The notes below the pieces were generated by a model. The model ran no database searches. It was not told the origin of the DNA and saw nothing but the letters and a program-made list of their open reading frames with translations. Positions 120-22,700 of a stretch of 26,221 nucleotides of DNA are shown here, piece by piece. Both the position numbers and the translations under genes were made by a program. Source of the DNA: an uncultured Bacteroides sp. (lineage in GTDB: Bacteria > Bacteroidota > Bacteroidia > Bacteroidales > Bacteroidaceae); contig USEY01000052.1 of assembly GCA_900553815.1 (NCBI GenBank), forward strand, positions 1 through 26,221. Direction: 5' to 3'. Position 1 is the stretch's first letter; every line of letters starts with the position of its first letter.

Positions 120-494
120 AGAAGGCAGCCGGACGGTCTGTCGCTTGCGCCTCCGTGCGCACGAGGAAAGTCCGGGCAACACAGAGCATCCCACTTCCTA
201 ACAGAAAGCTGTCCGCAAGGGTGGAGTAACGCAGAAGAAAACAACCGCCCCGCTCCGCAAGGATGTCGGGGTAAGGGTGAGAAGGCGGGGTAAGAGCCCA
301 CCAGGCTTGTGGCGACACAAGCGCTGTGCGTCTTGGGAGTTGTAAGGTCATGTAAACCGACGTCAAGAGGGTTGCTCGCCCCATGTCGGAGGGTAGACCG
401 CTAAAGCCGTCAGGTGACTGCCGGCTCAGATAAATGACAGACACTTGCCCCCGCGGCAAGCACAGAACCCGGCTTACAGGCTGGCTGCCTTCTT
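120..494 (+). ncRNA. rnpB: RNase P RNA, bacterial class A
   Basis: Catalytic RNA of ribonuclease P, which cleaves the 5' leader from pre-tRNAs. The universally conserved 5' element GAGGAAAGTCCGGGC is at 163-177 and the conserved 3' element ACAGAACCCGGCTTACAG is at 462-479. The ends pair as the P1 helix: AGAAGGCAGCC at 120-130 with GGCTGCCTTCT at 483-493. The length of about 375 nt is normal for class A. A run of T residues at 492-499 follows P1 and probably ends transcription, though some readthrough into the YihY-family gene is possible because that gene has no clear promoter. A Bacteroides-type promoter lies immediately upstream. Confidence 0.97.
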
Positions 495-6368: not shown

Positions 6369-6459
6369 TAAAAAAAAGGAAGCTTTTCACAAAGCCTCCT
6401 TTTTCAGTTTTCAATAGGTATTAGTTTTTTTTTAAGGTAAAAAGATTGTTTTCAGGATA
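6369..6459 (-). ncRNA. candidate small RNA ending in an intrinsic terminator
   Basis: A Bacteroides-type promoter (6466-6498) would start leftward transcription near 6459. About 60 nt later lies a strong terminator: AAAAAGGAGGCTTT (minus strand, 6391-6404), loop GTGA, AAAGCTTCCTTTTTTT. The result would be a 90-nt transcript of AT-rich single-stranded 5' part plus terminator hairpin. No ATG-started ORF is present. An AGGAGG followed by GTG could open a 12-codon peptide within the hairpin, which I consider unlikely. The terminator lies far upstream of ribE, which has its own promoter, so an attenuated long leader is the alternative. Confidence 0.45.
6371..6404. terminator. bidirectional intrinsic terminator
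   Basis: AAAAAGGA-A-GCTTT and AAAGC-C-TCCTTTTT form a stem with one internal mismatch and a four-base loop, with poly-T on both strands. It lies within a 1.1-kb stretch (5985-7080) with no credible protein gene. Confidence 0.75.
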
Positions 6460-6465
6460 ACGGTG

Positions 6466-6498
6466 CAAAGATAGACCCTTTTATTGGTACCAACCAAA
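6466..6498 (-). promoter_or_regulatory. leftward promoter with palindrome in the spacer
   Basis: Minus-strand TATCTTTG (6466-6473) and TTTG (6495-6498) are 21 bp apart. The spacer holds the perfect palindrome TTGGTACCAA (6484-6493), a position where a bound repressor would block polymerase. It drives the candidate small RNA. Confidence 0.6.
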
Positions 6499-6704
6499 TT
6501 AAAAAACATGTCATATAACATCTTTTTGATAATTTCTTTATGATTGTTATCATTTCAAAGGACTTTTCTACACTTAGCACCTTTGATTGTGACAAATATA
6601 AAGTACTTTTTTGGATTAACACTAAAAAAATCCTAAAGAAAAGTATCAAAATGCTCCAAACGCCTGCCAAGACACGCGTGAAGTGGGTATACCTATAGCA
6701 CGTT

Positions 6705-6924
6705 GGAAGTACACTCTCAGCAAGCTAGCAGTATACTCCCAGCGAGCTAGCAGTACACTCCCAGCAAACTAGCAGTACACTCCCAACGAGCTAGCAGTAC
6801 ACTCCCAGCAAACTAGCAGTACACTCCCACCGAGCTAGCAGTACACTCCCAACGAGCTAGCAGTACACTCCCACTGAGCTAGCAGTACACTCCCAGCAAA
6901 CCAGCAGTACACTCCCTGCGAGAC
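6705..6924. repeat. 22-bp tandem repeat array 1 (10 units)
   Basis: Ten head-to-tail units of exactly 22 bp, the central ones beginning AGCAGTACACTCCC, with variation concentrated at unit positions 15-22 (AGCGAGCT, AGCAAACT, AACGAGCT and others). The first and last units are the most diverged. There are no unique spacers, so it is not CRISPR, and 22 is not a multiple of three, so it is not a coding repeat. Array 2 at 16938-17157 has the same period and unit number and shares 15 of 22 consensus bases. Confidence 0.97.
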
Positions 6925-6946
6925 AGCAGACACATGGCTAAAGACA

Positions 6947-7009
6947 GCAGGCAACGGATATGAGACGAACGGAAGCCCGATTTGCTTCCCGTCCCTTTCC
7001 GTTGCCTGC
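6947..7009. terminator. long stem-loop downstream of phoU
   Basis: GCAGGCAACGGA (6947-6958) pairs with TCCGTTGCCTGC (6998-7009), and inner GGAAGC/GCTTCC extends the helix. It lies 70 bp after the phoU stop and just next to array 1. No strong T tract follows on the minus strand, so it may be a transcript-end stabiliser rather than a pure intrinsic terminator. Confidence 0.6.
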
Positions 7010-7080: not shown

Positions 7081-7767
7081 TTACTTCTCTGACTTCTGCT
7101 CCGCGCCGTGATTATGCTTCAGCACCTTGGCGTCGATGAAGAACACGATTTCTTCGGCAATGTTGGTGATGTGGTCGCCCGAACGCTCCAGCTTGCGGAA
7201 TACGCTGATGAGGTCCAGACAGAAACGTGCGCTCTCGGGATGCTGGCCAATGTAGTCGGCCAGGATGCCGGCAGCGGCGGCGTTTATCTCATCCAGCAGG
7301 TTGTCCTTGGCAAACACCGAAGTGGCCAGGTCGATGCTCTCTTCCTGCAAGGCACGCTTGGCCAGTTCCAGCATGGAGAGCACCTCTCTTATCATCTCGC
7401 CCAGCCGCAGGTCGGCAATGAGCTGGCTGTCCAGCGCAGGTTCCTTGCACTGGATGGCAAAACGGGCAATGCCCTCGGCAAAGTCGCCCAAGCGTTCCAG
7501 GTTGGCATTAATCTTGAGCATGGCCAATACAAAGCGCAGGTCGATGCCCACCGGATTGTAGAGCGCAATGATGTCTTCCACATCGCTGTCGTTCTTCAGC
7601 TCGAAGGCATTCACACGGCGGTCGCGCACAGCCACCTGTTGCGCCAGTTCCTTGTCCAGCGTCAGCACGGCCTCGCCCGCACGGTCCAGTTGGTTATAGA
7701 CCAAGGTCCACATCTCGTCAATCTCTTTCTTCAGCAGAAGAAGTTCCGATTCTATAAACTTTACCAT
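7081..7767 (-). CDS. phoU: phosphate-signalling protein PhoU
   Basis: Regulator linking the PstSCAB phosphate transporter to phosphate-responsive signalling; cytoplasmic and membrane-associated in the family. The protein is all-helical with two related three-helix bundles, each with the metal-binding pattern ExxxD: NANLERLGDFAEGIARFA around residue 90 and FRKLERSGDHITNIAEEIV near 200. With the start at ATG 7767 (MVKFIESELLLLKKEIDEM) it is 228 aa, the usual length; an upstream in-frame start would add 24 residues unlike the family. No pst gene is in the window: phoU stands alone between array 1 and a 580-bp gap before glnS. Confidence 0.95.
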   Translation of the reverse strand: MVKFIESELLLLKKEIDEMWTLVYNQLDRAGEAVLTLDKELAQQVAVRDRRVNAFELKNDSDVEDIIALYNPVGIDLRFVLAMLKINANLERLGDFAEGIARFAIQCKEPALDSQLIADLRLGEMIREVLSMLELAKRALQEESIDLATSVFAKDNLLDEINAAAAGILADYIGQHPESARFCLDLISVFRKLERSGDHITNIAEEIVFFIDAKVLKHNHGAEQKSEK

Positions 7768-12548: not shown

Positions 12549-13178
12549 TCATGCCTCACCGGCTGTCAACTCCTTCTTGCATGCGTCAGATTCGTGCAGG
12601 AAGCGGTACATCGTGGTGCGCGACACGTCCATCCGCCGAGCCAGTTCCGAGCAGGAGATTCCTTGCTGATAGTCACGAAAAATCCAGTTCTTGTTCTCGA
12701 TGAGCATATCCATCTTGGGTGTCGTCCCCTTCCTGCGCCCCAGCTTCTTGCCCTCCTGACGGCGGCGGGCCAGCGCCTCCTTGGTGCGCATCGAGATGAG
12801 GTTTCGCTCAATCTCGGCTATCAGCCCGAAGGCAAAGCCCAGCACCTTGCTGTTGATGTCGTTCTGAAACACGTAGCCCTCTTTGGTGCTGTAGAGACGC
12901 ACATTCTTGCTGATGCAAGTGTTCAGAATGGTCATGATTTCGAGCAACGTCCTACTCAAGCGGGAAATTTCGGTGACCACCAACGCGTCGCCCGGCTTCA
13001 TGCGCGACAGCAGATTGGCCAGCTTGCGGTCCTTACTGCACACGCAACCGCTCACTGTCTCGGTGTACCACCGGTCAATTTTCAACCCATGCTTGGAAGC
13101 AAAACGTTCAATCTCTTCATGTTGGTTTTCCAGATACTGCTTTTCTGTACTAACCCTTAAATAAGCTATTACTGCCAT
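12549..13178 (-). CDS. serine site-specific recombinase (Mpi-like DNA invertase)
   Basis: Resolvase/invertase-family recombinase that would cut and rejoin DNA at paired inverted sites. The N-terminal catalytic domain begins AVIAYLRVSTEKQ with the nucleophilic Ser at residue 10; further catalytic-region marks are VTEISRLSR and the YSTKEGYVF...INSKVLGFAFGLIAEIERN stretch. A helix-turn-helix follows at the C-terminus (GISCSELARRMDVSRTTMYR). The whole resembles the Bacteroides fragilis global invertase Mpi, known to flip capsule-locus promoters. ATG at 13178 is preferred; ATG at 13184 adds two residues. The gene stands alone between two terminators. I found no invertible segment by eye nearby. 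Confidence 0.92.
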   Translation of the reverse strand: MAVIAYLRVSTEKQYLENQHEEIERFASKHGLKIDRWYTETVSGCVCSKDRKLANLLSRMKPGDALVVTEISRLSRTLLEIMTILNTCISKNVRLYSTKEGYVFQNDINSKVLGFAFGLIAEIERNLISMRTKEALARRRQEGKKLGRRKGTTPKMDMLIENKNWIFRDYQQGISCSELARRMDVSRTTMYRFLHESDACKKELTAGEA

Positions 13179-13185
13179 AATCATT

Positions 13186-15064: not shown

Positions 15065-16618
15065 TCACTCTACTACTATCCGCAACACCGGTGAATAGCC
15101 CACACCGGCCTCGGACTGTGCAAAGGCACGCACATAGTAGATACCCGCCGCCAGCGAATGAAGCACATTCAACTGGCCTCCCGACACGACCTTACTGTCA
15201 GCCGTCAGGATAACGCTGCCGGTATCGTCCAGATTGGGCAACTGGTTGTCGGTGCTATAGCAAATACCGGCTTTCATCTCCTCGCTCTCGTTTGGGAAGT
15301 TGAAGACCGAGCAAGAGAAAGAATATCCCTGTTCACCCGTGCCTGAAGAGCCGTAACGGACAGCATCGAACAAGCCAAGTATTGGCAATCCGCTACGTTT
15401 GTAGTCATAGACGTCAGAATAAACATAGTCGGACCACGAACCGCCAAAGGACATGGCCAGCTCGTAGTACAGAGTGTCCCCCTTGACGTTATAAGCATCC
15501 AGATAAGAAGCTCCGAGGAAGAAGAAGCGCTCGTCGCCTCCCTGCTCCTCCAGCTGCTTGAAGGGGGCCAGATTGTTAGACCAGTCAGGATACTCTACAC
15601 TAGGCAATACATTGCGATTGTCGCTTGCCAGCATCTCGGCCTGCTGTCCGGCAGGAATCCCGACCTTCACCAGCCAGCCGCCTTCACGGCGCATGAACTC
15701 CAAGTCACTTTGGGTAACGCCCAAAGTCTCTACTTCATTGTAGGGCAGTTCAGATATATCAATCAGCTTGCCCACCGTATACTCGAAAGGCAGCTCCACA
15801 GCGCCCACCGTCATCTTCCATACGGCGGAGTAAGATACCCCTGCCGACGTCTCGGCAAACGCGCGCACAAAATAAGTGCCCGGCTCTGTCGGATAAGCAG
15901 ACACATTGAGATAAGAGTTGCCAGGAGTCCAGTCGTCCATTCTCACCACCTCGTCAGTAATCGTAGGCACCTCATTGGTCTGGCTGTAGCATACGCCCAC
16001 CGACTGCGCCAGCTCACTGTTAATAATGGAACCTTCGGCTCTGAAGCCCGACTGCAGATAGTCCTCGGTCAGCACCATCCATGTATGTTCAAAATAAGGT
16101 TGGTTGTTGTTGAAAGGATAAGTTTGCGACTGTGACGAGTAATAGACGTATCCCCCGTTATTCAAGCAGTTGTCTACAAATCCCGTCATGTCATCCATGT
16201 AGGTAGACTGGGTCATTCTGAATTCCATTGTCCTGACTTCAAAAGGAATGTTACTCCGTTCCAACAGGAAATATACCCGGCCATTCTCAACAGGACAAGC
16301 CACCGCGCCATGATAATAATATCCTTCTGTTGATGCGTCATCGGCATCGCGCCACTCCAAATAGCAATACGAACTCTGATCATAGGGCGTCACCTCACCC
16401 TCGACCAACATGAAAGAACGCTGGCGCAACTCTTCTGCCGGATAGCCATAGTCCTTGGTATAAGTTGCCAAATGCTCCAGCTCGTCCCACGTCAAATCCG
16501 ATCCCAGCTTAACACTGGTAATCGACATACTGATAGGAGCCGAAGCCTTGAATTCATCCACCTCGTTGCACGAAACCAGCAACAAAGTCATCCACAATAA
16601 GTTCAGTAATCGTTTCAT
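15065..16618 (-). CDS. large surface lipoprotein with two Ig/FnIII-like repeats
   Basis: 517 aa. The signal peptide ends LLLVSC followed by N, a lipobox, so it is lipid-anchored; the acidic DEF next to Cys20 region could favour surface export in Bacteroidetes. Two internal repeats are visible, at about residues 205-275 and 430-517: GVCYSQTNEVPTI...TYFVRAFAETSAGVSYS and GICYSTDNQLPNL...IYYVRAFAQSEAGVGYS, each a beta-sandwich-like module common in Bacteroides lipoproteins. The N-terminal half is unrecognised. It is the first gene of the operon, with a strong promoter and the ribosome-binding-like AGGAGAAAGAG immediately before ATG. It may bind a ligand or partner at the surface with the two barrel proteins. 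Confidence 0.85.
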   Translation of the reverse strand: MKRLLNLLWMTLLLVSCNEVDEFKASAPISMSITSVKLGSDLTWDELEHLATYTKDYGYPAEELRQRSFMLVEGEVTPYDQSSYCYLEWRDADDASTEGYYYHGAVACPVENGRVYFLLERSNIPFEVRTMEFRMTQSTYMDDMTGFVDNCLNNGGYVYYSSQSQTYPFNNNQPYFEHTWMVLTEDYLQSGFRAEGSIINSELAQSVGVCYSQTNEVPTITDEVVRMDDWTPGNSYLNVSAYPTEPGTYFVRAFAETSAGVSYSAVWKMTVGAVELPFEYTVGKLIDISELPYNEVETLGVTQSDLEFMRREGGWLVKVGIPAGQQAEMLASDNRNVLPSVEYPDWSNNLAPFKQLEEQGGDERFFFLGASYLDAYNVKGDTLYYELAMSFGGSWSDYVYSDVYDYKRSGLPILGLFDAVRYGSSGTGEQGYSFSCSVFNFPNESEEMKAGICYSTDNQLPNLDDTGSVILTADSKVVSGGQLNVLHSLAAGIYYVRAFAQSEAGVGYSPVLRIVVE

Positions 16619-16686: not shown

Positions 16687-16898
16687 CTTTCTCCGAAATT
16701 GTTTTTCACATGCCAACACATAAAGCCAGGAAGCCTGCCCCACACGTCCACTGGGCACACTAGCCACACAGACGATAGCGACATTGCCCACTAACAGAGG
16801 ATTTGAAGCCATACCAGAAGCAAACAGCCACCAGCTAACTTACAGCCCAAACACCATAAACTGACACCAAAGAAACATCGACACCCATGCGATAAGTT

Positions 16899-17157
16899 TT
16901 AACGGTCTGCATGATAAATATTAACGGCCTGCTAATTGACAGTAGACTACTATTGACCGGGCAATGGACTACTATCGACCAAGCAGTGGACTACCATCGA
17001 CCAAGCAGTGGACTGCTATCGACCAAGCAGTGGACTACTATCGACCAAGCAGTGGACTGCTATCGACCAAGCAGTGGACTACTATCGACCAAGTAGTGGA
17101 CTGCTATCGACCAAGCAGTGGACTACTATCAAACGGGCAGTAGACTACCATCAAACA
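16899..17157. repeat. 22-bp tandem repeat array 2 (10 units plus 2 decayed)
   Basis: Ten units of exactly 22 bp at 16938-17157; the core units begin AGCAGTGGACTACTATCGAC, with alternation of ACTACT and ACTGCT. Two further decayed 22-bp units (TTAACGGTCTGC... at 16899 and TTAACGGCCTGC... at 16921) keep the same phase upstream. There are no spacers and no coding potential. The rest of the 16619-17482 gap, including 16690-16898, holds no gene I can support. Confidence 0.97.
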
Positions 17158-17267
17158 AGAGAGACTGGTGCAACAAGTAACTCACGCCCCAACACCAACA
17201 AAGGCAAACGATGAATGACCGGTCTTGGAAATGATACTCGCAGGAAGTATTCTTTTCTGCAAAACTC

Positions 17268-17482: not shown

Positions 17483-18298
17483 ATGAACCTGATTAAATCA
17501 TTAATCTTATTGGCCGGACTGTTGCCTACCTGCGGAGTGCACGCACAACAAACGCAGAAGGATTCGGTCACGATAAGCGGACACGTCAGCGACTATGAGG
17601 GCCATGCCATAGGCAACTGCTCCGTGATGTTTCAGAACTCCAACTTTGACACGCTGTTCGAAACCAAGACCGACAAGGACGGCAACTATCAAATCAGAAT
17701 ACCCAAAGGAAGATACAGCAACATGGGAGCCATCGACATGGACACGTATCCCCATACCATGAAGTCCGGCAGCGACCTGCAGGAACTCAGGCTGGAGTTC
17801 TGGGGCTGGAACGTGGTTGCCGACCGCGACACGACCCTGAACATCAGATATCACCGTATGGAGGCCTACGGACTGCATGTTTTCCAGATTCCCGGCGGCA
17901 TGCCTACCTATCAGATTTATGTCCGCCCGATGAGTCTGACCAGGTTTCTGGCCAACAAGGGTATCGGCAATGCCCAACATAAGGAGGATTTGTCGGATAT
18001 CACCCAAACAGTATCGGCAGACAGTGCCCGATGCGACCGGCTGGCTCCCACTATCGACAAGGCGGGCATAAAAGTCTGGGTAGACGGTGAAGAGGTTCCT
18101 GTACTGATGAAACAGCAGATAAAGGAATATTACAAAGCTACTGAATATGGCATAGCCTATTACCTGACCGTTGATATGCCCAAACGAAAGACTACCCTGC
18201 CCTACCATGTATTCAGGGTTGAACTGACCGACCTTGAAAACGGCGACCGTGGAGAAGCCGTGTACTACCTTGAAAAGACGGATTACATAGAAAACTGA
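17483..18298 (+). CDS. secreted protein with carboxypeptidase-regulatory-like domain
   Basis: 271 aa, function unknown. The signal peptide is MNLIKSLILLAGLLPTCGVH followed by AQ. A carboxypeptidase-regulatory-like domain (VTISGHVSDYEGHAIGNCSV...TKTDKDGNYQIRIPKGRY, about residues 28-80) starts the mature protein. The remainder has no domain I recognise; it includes IPGGMPTYQIYVRPMSLTRF and KAGIKVWVDGEEVPVLMK. A Cys lies in the signal region (LPTCG), but its position favours cleavage at HAQ rather than a lipobox. It has its own promoter and ends 8 bp from the convergent glycosyltransferase gene, with no terminator visible between them. Confidence 0.85.
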   Translation: MNLIKSLILLAGLLPTCGVHAQQTQKDSVTISGHVSDYEGHAIGNCSVMFQNSNFDTLFETKTDKDGNYQIRIPKGRYSNMGAIDMDTYPHTMKSGSDLQELRLEFWGWNVVADRDTTLNIRYHRMEAYGLHVFQIPGGMPTYQIYVRPMSLTRFLANKGIGNAQHKEDLSDITQTVSADSARCDRLAPTIDKAGIKVWVDGEEVPVLMKQQIKEYYKATEYGIAYYLTVDMPKRKTTLPYHVFRVELTDLENGDRGEAVYYLEKTDYIEN

Positions 18299-21716: not shown

Positions 21717-22700
21717 TCACCTTCTGGAACTACTACTCGAGCTGCGCGAAGAAGAGGAAGTGCGTGAAGAACCTCCCGCCGTTGAACTGCTACGGGTGCT
21801 ACTGCCCGAACTGCTGCGTACACTACTGCTGCTACGAGTGCTATTGTTTTGAGTAGACTGAGTACGCGTGCTGCTTCCAGAGGTAGACCGGGTGGTGCTG
21901 GAACTGCTACGGGTGGTGCCCGAAGTACGGCTATTCGACGTACTGCTGCTACTGCGTGTGCTGCTACTTGTCCGCGTACTGCTACCGGTGCGTGTACCAC
22001 TACTGGTACGTGTGCTGCTGCCAGACGAAGTGCGCGAAGGAGTGGCATAAACATCATCCGGCGTAGAAGATGTCCGGCGTGTTGACGAACTCGTCCTGCT
22101 TGGCTGACGGGTTGTATTAGGCTTTATCCGCACCGAACCGAAGTCCGAACGCCGCGTTGTCCTATTGTTCCGCACACTAACCGTACCCGTGTAGCAAGGA
22201 TGATCGTAACGGCCATGGTAGAAACTCACATTATGATAGTAGTGATGACTATGTCCTCCGCAATAAGATTTATAATGATAAGGCTTGGGGAAATAGAAGT
22301 GGTTATGGTTCACATACACCAAGTGAACACGGAAAGTCCAAGTATTATTGGTTATAAAAAGCGGACGGAAGAAGTATTCCCTATCCATAAACTTATGATA
22401 CTGAGCTGCTGTAAGTACCCACCTGAGGTCATCGTTCCGATAATCCAGGTAACGATAATAATCATTCAAAGCCCATTCGTATCCATCCAACACTTCATCC
22501 ATTATATCGCGCACCTGGTCTATGAAATCGTAATTGATTTCATACACATCATTATATTGCCCTGTCGAAAGGTTCAGCTCGTAGGCCATCTTGTCAGTCA
22601 AGAAACGGGATTCTTTGCGCAAACGGCTATTGCTCATTGCGGCACTGCAATATACAGTGCTCACTACCAGCGTAATCAGTATAAAAAATATTCGTTTCAT
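21717..22700 (-). CDS. secreted protein with Arg/Ser/Thr-rich low-complexity tail
   Basis: 327 aa, function unknown. The signal peptide is MKRIFFILITLVVSTVYCSA. Residues of about 25-115 are an acidic helical domain (LNLSTGQYNDVYEINYDF, DEVLDGYEWALNDYYR). Residues 115-170 are rich in His, Tyr and Phe (NHNHFYFPKPYHYK, GGHSHHYYHN). The last 130 residues consist almost only of Ser, Thr, Arg and Gly (for example TRTSSGTRTGSSTRTSSST), a disordered basic tail of short reiterated codons. The tail may be a cell-wall or polyanion-binding extension; this is inference. It has its own -7 box and a strong hairpin downstream. Confidence 0.85.
   Translation of the reverse strand: MKRIFFILITLVVSTVYCSAAMSNSRLRKESRFLTDKMAYELNLSTGQYNDVYEINYDFIDQVRDIMDEVLDGYEWALNDYYRYLDYRNDDLRWVLTAAQYHKFMDREYFFRPLFITNNTWTFRVHLVYVNHNHFYFPKPYHYKSYCGGHSHHYYHNVSFYHGRYDHPCYTGTVSVRNNRTTRRSDFGSVRIKPNTTRQPSRTSSSTRRTSSTPDDVYATPSRTSSGSSTRTSSGTRTGSSTRTSSSTRSSSSTSNSRTSGTTRSSSSTTRSTSGSSTRTQSTQNNSTRSSSSVRSSSGSSTRSSSTAGGSSRTSSSSRSSSSSSRR

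Follow-up and report, generated by a model that had tools for sequence, protein, structure and literature searches.

The window, the whole 26,221-bp stretch of Bacteroides DNA analysed here, has a G+C content of 50% and carries RNase P RNA, riboflavin synthase, phoU, glutamine-tRNA ligase and an Mpi-type invertase. Its gene order and sequence similarity suggest a position near Bacteroidaceae. Two arrays of 22-bp units lie outside its coding genes, overlapped by short frames only (Table 1). The gene phoU borders array 1 with its 3' end (7081), and a BTnc060 sRNA homologue borders it on the other side; neither belongs to the array. Array 2 is flanked by divergent frames with starts at 16618 and 17483. 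Relatives of BTnc060 also adjoin phoU in B. finegoldii and Phocaeicola massiliensis, with partial matches in Parabacteroides distasonis and three Prevotella records. Since sRNA and phoU are adjacent in both B. finegoldii and P. massiliensis with no array between them, array 1 is not conserved at that position. Involvement of the Mpi-type invertase in the arrays was considered and set aside, its position being the sole hint.

Table 1. Features of the window
Feature	Position	Strand	Remarks
RNase P RNA class A, bacterial	125..492	+	RF00010, 219.9 bits against a gathering score of 100
BTnc060 sRNA homologue	6372..6586	-	RF04184 (Bacteroides), 162.7 bits, E 8.4e-28, under the gathering score of 228.9
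TATATTTG	6593..6600	-	fits a Bacteroides -7 box
Array 1	6705..6924	none	ten 22-bp units, consensus AGCAGTACACTCCCAGCGAGCT
Perfect 12-bp inverted repeat GCAGGCAACGGA	6947..7009		39 bases between the arms; between phoU and array 1
phoU	7081..7764	-	TIGR02135, 159.3 bits against a cut-off of 130.25
Master DNA invertase Mpi family serine recombinase	12549..13184	-	NF009949, 283.4 bits against a cut-off of 272; between the arrays
517-aa frame, left of array 2	15065..16618	-	no Pfam match
Short 22-bp pair, different unit	16891..16932		directly beside array 2; Tandem Repeats Finder, 1.9 copies
Array 2	16938..17157	none	ten 22-bp units, consensus AGCAGTGGACTACTATCGACCA
271-aa frame, right of array 2	17483..18298	+	carboxypeptidase-regulatory-like domain
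327-aa frame	21717..22700	-	long Ser/Thr/Arg-rich C-terminal half containing an 18/36-bp tandem repeat

The preliminary description had placed two spacer-free arrays of ten 22-bp units here, and Tandem Repeats Finder recovers both with period 22 and 0% indels, array 1 at 6708-6933 (10.3 copies, 86% matches) and array 2 at 16940-17159 (10.0 copies, 87% matches). The units abut in both arrays and leave no unique spacers, which rules out identification of the window arrays as CRISPR. The short pair beside array 2 is picked up again with a weaker lag-22 threshold. Recomputation also confirms the 15 common consensus bases at the positions that had been listed: AGCAGTACACTCCCAGCGAGCT and AGCAGTGGACTACTATCGACCA are identical at 15 of 22 positions, the top score among 44 registers and strands. 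At least 15 of 22 matches arise in 0.15% of 100,000 single-unit shuffles (P 0.0015), and the likeness of the two units is therefore probably not by chance, though the pair was chosen by eye. The claim that the arrays hold no coding frame stands for array 1, whose reading frames are closed by TAG in most units, and fails for array 2, where plus-strand frames of 59, 61 and 68 aa are open; nothing marks these frames as genes.

Deviations from the consensus of array 1 are concentrated, 15 of 20 falling within columns 16-22 (block P 0.027, column shuffle). In both arrays the central units are alike and the edge units degenerate, and core identity peaks at a separation of two units, so both arrays were probably lengthened via slippage or unequal exchange. 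When the 22 columns are permuted identically in all units, a null that keeps the period, the dyad within the window units reaches P 0.02 in array 1 and P 0.42 in array 2.

A search of 11 records with the array sequences gave no relative of either (best E 0.63 and 0.27). In IMG/VR, a 15-base array pattern gave 14 single matches, none of them repeated within its contig stretch, two other array patterns gave zero, and a scan with GlnRS yielded no relative; a scan of genome contigs with the TPR protein reached one unrelated clostridial locus only. Phage records held no match to the region of either array. Among plasmid records there was no match to the array 2 region, and the array 1 region matched through its sRNA part alone, in six Bacteroidales records.

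The 22-bp lag in Bacteroidales

Comparison DNA consisted of chromosome pieces from PLSDB 'plasmid' records, six samples of five Bacteroidales species: B. finegoldii (287 kb), P. massiliensis (296 kb), P. distasonis (544 kb), Prevotella sp. oral taxon 299 (800 kb) and two strains of P. nigrescens, FDAARGOS_1486 (568 kb) and F0103 (164 kb). Persicobacter (400 kb), a clostridium (360 kb) and E. coli (400 kb) served as outgroups with one genome sample each. The PLSDB records NZ_OY7257xx, NZ_OY7259xx and OY7259xx-OY726001, though labelled plasmids, are chromosome pieces of P. distasonis, B. finegoldii and P. massiliensis that carry ribosomal protein, glnS and mdh genes. A place was counted whenever 24 bases were repeated at the lag in question with at least 18 matches in non-ORF DNA, defined as DNA outside open frames of at least 150 codons. 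A second threshold of 21/30 was applied, and both thresholds were of our own setting. The DNA was scanned in separate 20-kb chunks, and arrays spanning chunk ends can be missed.

All five Bacteroidales species sampled show a strong intergenic excess of lag 22, which none of the three outgroups shares. At 18/24, the six samples hold 13, 6, 14, 26, 23 and 5 places in the order given above, against a mean of 0.11-0.46 places at other lags in the same non-ORF DNA, and the outgroups hold 1 (Persicobacter), 0 (clostridium) and 0 (E. coli). The second threshold of 21/30 gives 11, 8, 15, 36, 33 and 8 places and 0 per outgroup. Further peaks stand at lag 44 in all six Bacteroidales samples and at lag 66 in five of the six; neighbouring lags are weak (3 places at lag 21 in P. 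massiliensis and 3 at lag 23 in P. distasonis). Within long ORFs, lag 22 is absent from four of the six samples, the exceptions being FDAARGOS_1486 (8 places, against 0.87 at other lags) and P. distasonis (3 places, against 0.50). Tandem Repeats Finder, run on a smaller set, returns the same 22-bp pattern. Extragenic repeat arrays are already known, and the new point is the order-wide fixed 22-bp phase, for which searches of open-access PMC papers yielded no description.

Dyads, unit families and spacing

The arrays found outside the window, 102 in the five species, are short, with a median of 3.2-3.7 units and a maximum of 5.5, against about ten in each window array. A dyad reaches P<0.05 under the period-keeping null in 59 of the 102: 6/12 in B. 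finegoldii, 5/7 in P. massiliensis, 12/16 in P. distasonis, 15/34 in oral taxon 299 and 21/33 in P. nigrescens. Column identity around the axis, profiled together with its permuted control on only the 76 arrays of at least 60 bp, is 0.85, 0.76, 0.84 and 0.84 at distances of 4-7 bp, where permuted arrays reach 0.62-0.64, and drops to 0.53-0.37 at 9-11 bp. A dyad repeated with period 22 has another axis 11 bp away, so that half-sites alternate along one face at intervals of about 11 bp.

For the most part, each genome has its own unit families. Unit pairs alike at 15 or more of 22 positions number 345/561, 186/528, 5/120, 3/21 and 0/66 within the five genomes, the last being B. finegoldii, whose loci have no common family, and 69/4059 between genomes. 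The outcome that the preliminary description had named as fatal to its pairing, many 22-bp arrays with no common skeleton, is thus half true: families rarely cross between genomes, yet a skeleton common to two arrays of one genome is frequent in two species of the five, with few cases or none in the other three. In the two Prevotella, extragenic palindromes belonging to a single family are present in many copies in each genome. Units in oral taxon 299 are AAAAGCAWTGCTTTT-like; those in P. nigrescens follow AAAA-N7-TTTT with a linker like GCATTGC.

In non-ORF DNA of FDAARGOS_1486, 33 perfect AAAA-N7-TTTT pairs lie exactly 22 bp apart and none at any of the eight distances 18-21 and 23-26 bp (the centre table was computed for distances 16-30; counts are given for 18-26). 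With one arm mismatch allowed, there are 88 pairs at 22 against 17 at 21 and 16 at 23. Strict pairs in oral taxon 299 number 8 at 22 and 1 at each of 20, 21 and 23; one mismatch brings the count at 22 to 83, against 22 and 24 at the neighbouring distances, and the same pair count in the clostridium outgroup is 6 against 5 and 5. Tandem duplication should give mostly direct centres and a hairpin of adjacent units mostly inverted ones. Among the 33 strict pairs, however, 22 have unrelated centres, 6 inverted and 5 direct; neither kind dominates, so the spacing itself appears constrained. This is the strongest argument for constraint on spacing, and duplication alone does not set the phase. The earlier suggestion that a two-turn phase suits a protein-binding array is thereby strengthened, by the lag-22 excess in five of five Bacteroidales species and none of three outgroups and by equal spacing of units with unrelated centres, although the window pair that prompted it is not special.

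A separate regularity of P. nigrescens, in NZ_CP082843.1, is a centre motif ATACAAC/AGTTGTA that occurs 75 times at 76-78 bp spacing and looks like a CRISPR array.

Gene borders, strain turnover and folding

Placement relative to genes was tested for 92 of the 102 arrays, with the ten lacking a neighbour on one side excluded, nearby arrays counted separately and gene neighbours taken from a simple ORF caller. Gaps between convergent genes hold 31 of the 92, against 16.1 expected by random placement (0 of 300 trials as high), and gaps between divergent genes 15, against 25.6 expected (P 0.007). In tandem gaps, 30 of 46 arrays lie nearer the 3' end of the upstream gene. An array occupies none of the 14 conserved gaps over ten species pairs, and the comparison is uninformative on orthologous placement.

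Strain comparison bears on one rival account of the arrays, that they are plain minisatellites, functionless 22-bp units amplified by slippage or unequal crossing-over, with a skeleton due to descent or chance. The preliminary description had called for array lengths to be compared between strains, and in P. nigrescens, the one species for which this was done, two of nine arrays changed by whole units. Of the nine arrays compared between FDAARGOS_1486 and F0103, five are equally long in both strains, a sixth differs by exactly 22 bp, another has four units in one strain and two in the other (by eye), one is cut off by replaced neighbouring DNA and one lies in a segment absent from the other strain. 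Counterparts were found for 8 of 33 FDAARGOS_1486 arrays and 5 of 6 F0103 arrays, the F0103 array L218:1421 having none in FDAARGOS_1486. The arrays whose unit number differs between strains (L214:3758 and L188:8501) consist of TAGATATCTAA units. The changes by whole units fit a minisatellite, as do the alike centres, worn edges and two-unit sub-period of the window arrays. Slippage does not, however, explain why units at scores of independent loci, across five species, measure exactly 22 bp, and it leaves unexplained both the equal spacing between units with unrelated centres and the preference for 3' ends. Plain minisatellites are an unlikely account.

The preference for convergent gene ends would be expected if the dyads were gene-end hairpins, acting as bidirectional terminators or transcript-end stabilisers, with the arrays as tandem hairpins. 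In the five species, folds of arrays with at least three units do surpass those of period-keeping permutations (mean z -0.98 to -3.52, 70 arrays), and adjacent inverted units of P. nigrescens can pair over about 15 bp (by eye). Yet hairpins have no need for a fixed 22-bp phase, inverted neighbours are not commoner than direct ones (6 against 5 strict pairs), and the best-conserved pairs surround a free centre of six or seven bases. Within arrays, the arms covary marginally in the two Prevotella (P 0.014 each), and neither the remaining three species nor the window reaches significance. Sense RNA folds better than antisense in just 21 of 46 cases, a parity that is expected of DNA sites, and selection on the transcript strand was rejected. 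RNA rods were likewise rejected for the window arrays, whose folds stand out against dinucleotide shuffles (z -5.4 and -6.5) but give P values of only 0.066 and 0.146 once the null keeps the 22-bp period. Taken together, these results make gene-end hairpins a rather improbable explanation.

A mobile origin would have its model in BrickBuilt of Porphyromonas gingivalis, a member of the same order. BrickBuilt is described as a minisatellite and MITE built of spacer-free intergenic tandem units of 23 nt, imperfect, with conserved and variable positions, strain-variable unit number and long predicted stem-loops; it has one unit family, a leader and tail and IS5-like ends (PMC4596501). If the 22-bp arrays were MITE-like elements with such internal repeats, transposition would give both period and spread. 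Matches elsewhere that extend over an array along with at least 40 bp of flank exist for 9 of 33 arrays in P. nigrescens and 3 of 7 in P. massiliensis. Two P. massiliensis arrays are bounded by GATTATTACGTCC and its complement: at L034:12522-12615 and L143:9219-9315, the inverted ends GATTATTACGTCC / GGACGTAATAATC resemble a small mobile element enclosing a 22-bp array. No flank-plus-array match was found, however, for oral taxon 299 (34 arrays), P. distasonis (16) or B. finegoldii (12), and the flanks of array 1 and array 2 show no likeness to each other beyond 13 bases (E 0.36 or worse). A lone BrickBuilt-like end beside array 2, one 12-base match with 1 mismatch at 17161, is at chance level. 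Membership of the window arrays in a MITE family was accordingly rejected, and for the class as a whole mobility seems a poor explanation.

Intrinsically curved DNA, in which phased short tracts would bend the helix and place supercoil tips, is the least credible account, and the result depends on the wedge model. At 11 bp/turn, P. distasonis and the two Prevotella reach a mean z of 0.95-1.76 over period-keeping permutations with one model but 0.03-0.37 with the other. P. massiliensis scores negatively with either model, the window gives -0.32 and -0.46 at 11 bp/turn, and general curvature was discarded.

Known relatives and a proposed operator row

The nearest described relatives of the 22-bp arrays are BrickBuilt, PINSR and REP/BIME elements. 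BrickBuilt shares with the window arrays the order and the form of spacer-free intergenic tandem arrays of imperfect units; it differs in its 23-nt unit and in its leader, tail and terminal inverted repeats (PMC4596501), whereas the flanks of the window arrays are unrelated. The same source mentions unplaced 22-nt tandem repeats in P. gingivalis W83 (PMC4596501). PINSR is a dispersed intergenic repeat of 188 bp in the Prevotella intermedia/nigrescens group, present in P. nigrescens (PMC4755523). Because 9 of 33 P. nigrescens arrays match elsewhere with their flanks, PINSR may include some of the arrays seen here. It is, however, described as a single repeat of one Prevotella group, for which the available text mentions no 22-bp phase (PMC4755523) and to which just one of the five species here belongs.

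REP/BIME elements are described as short extragenic palindromes at regular spacing and in either orientation, the REPs being 20-40 bp long with tagged ends and RAYT transposases (PMC3733652; PMC2817692). The arrays described here differ from that account in that their units abut at a fixed 22 bp and their families vary by genome. A survey of prokaryotic repeats tested other patterns (PMC4060949). For a working mode, the closest parallel may be the direct repeats of BldC, operator arrays bound cooperatively by one protein (PMC5859096). Phased sites filled side by side by one protein are what would be proposed here by analogy, although many loci per genome and many unit families set the present arrays apart from BldC as described there, and their binding protein is putative.

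A fixed phase, symmetric half-sites and free centres make the class look most like an operator row for a dimeric protein. We put at roughly 40% the probability that the window arrays are exceptionally long representatives of a class of Bacteroidales intergenic arrays with an exact 22-bp period, predicted to be operator-like rows on which a dimeric protein sits side by side on one DNA face. Their membership of the class is suggested by exact period, spacer-free form and intergenic place. Negatively supercoiled DNA has a helical repeat of about 11 bp per turn. A length of 22 bp may thus be favoured as two such turns, so that a putative dimeric DNA-binding protein reading the sites would make contact once per turn of underwound DNA. 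Arrays filled in this way could mark or insulate gene borders, and slippage or unequal exchange would have stretched those of the window to ten units. The operator reading is supported by the excess of lag 22 at both thresholds in all six samples of the five species, with none in three outgroups, by the strict AAAA-N7-TTTT pairs at 22 bp with mostly unrelated centres, by the column identity around the axis, by the dyads that exceed the period-keeping null, by the preference for convergent over divergent gaps and by the parity of sense and antisense folding.

The main difficulty of the operator reading is sequence diversity between loci. Half-sites differ between genomes and among all B. finegoldii loci, so no single sequence-specific protein fits them all, and several related proteins or a reading of DNA shape would be needed. 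The window arrays themselves also count against it: array 2 has no significant dyad, that of array 1 reaches P 0.02, their roughly ten units exceed the maximum of 5.5 seen elsewhere, and array 1 is absent at the same place in B. finegoldii and P. massiliensis. The result for perfect arms, moreover, comes from one species.

A broader form of the operator reading, which we regard as possible but doubtful, is an order-wide architecture code. Gene-border dyad lattices with one dyad per two supercoiled turns would matter by phase more than by sequence, a Bacteroidales-specific architectural protein would fill them and insulate transcription units, and half-site families would have drifted in each genome.

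If the phase is under selection, an undescribed gene-border element recurs about every 17-42 kb (array counts over bases scanned) in a major order of gut and mouth bacteria, an unknown architectural protein is probable, and BrickBuilt and PINSR might have a common ground plan. If the phase is a mere mutational habit, it reveals a 22-bp-specific amplification mechanism in Bacteroidales.
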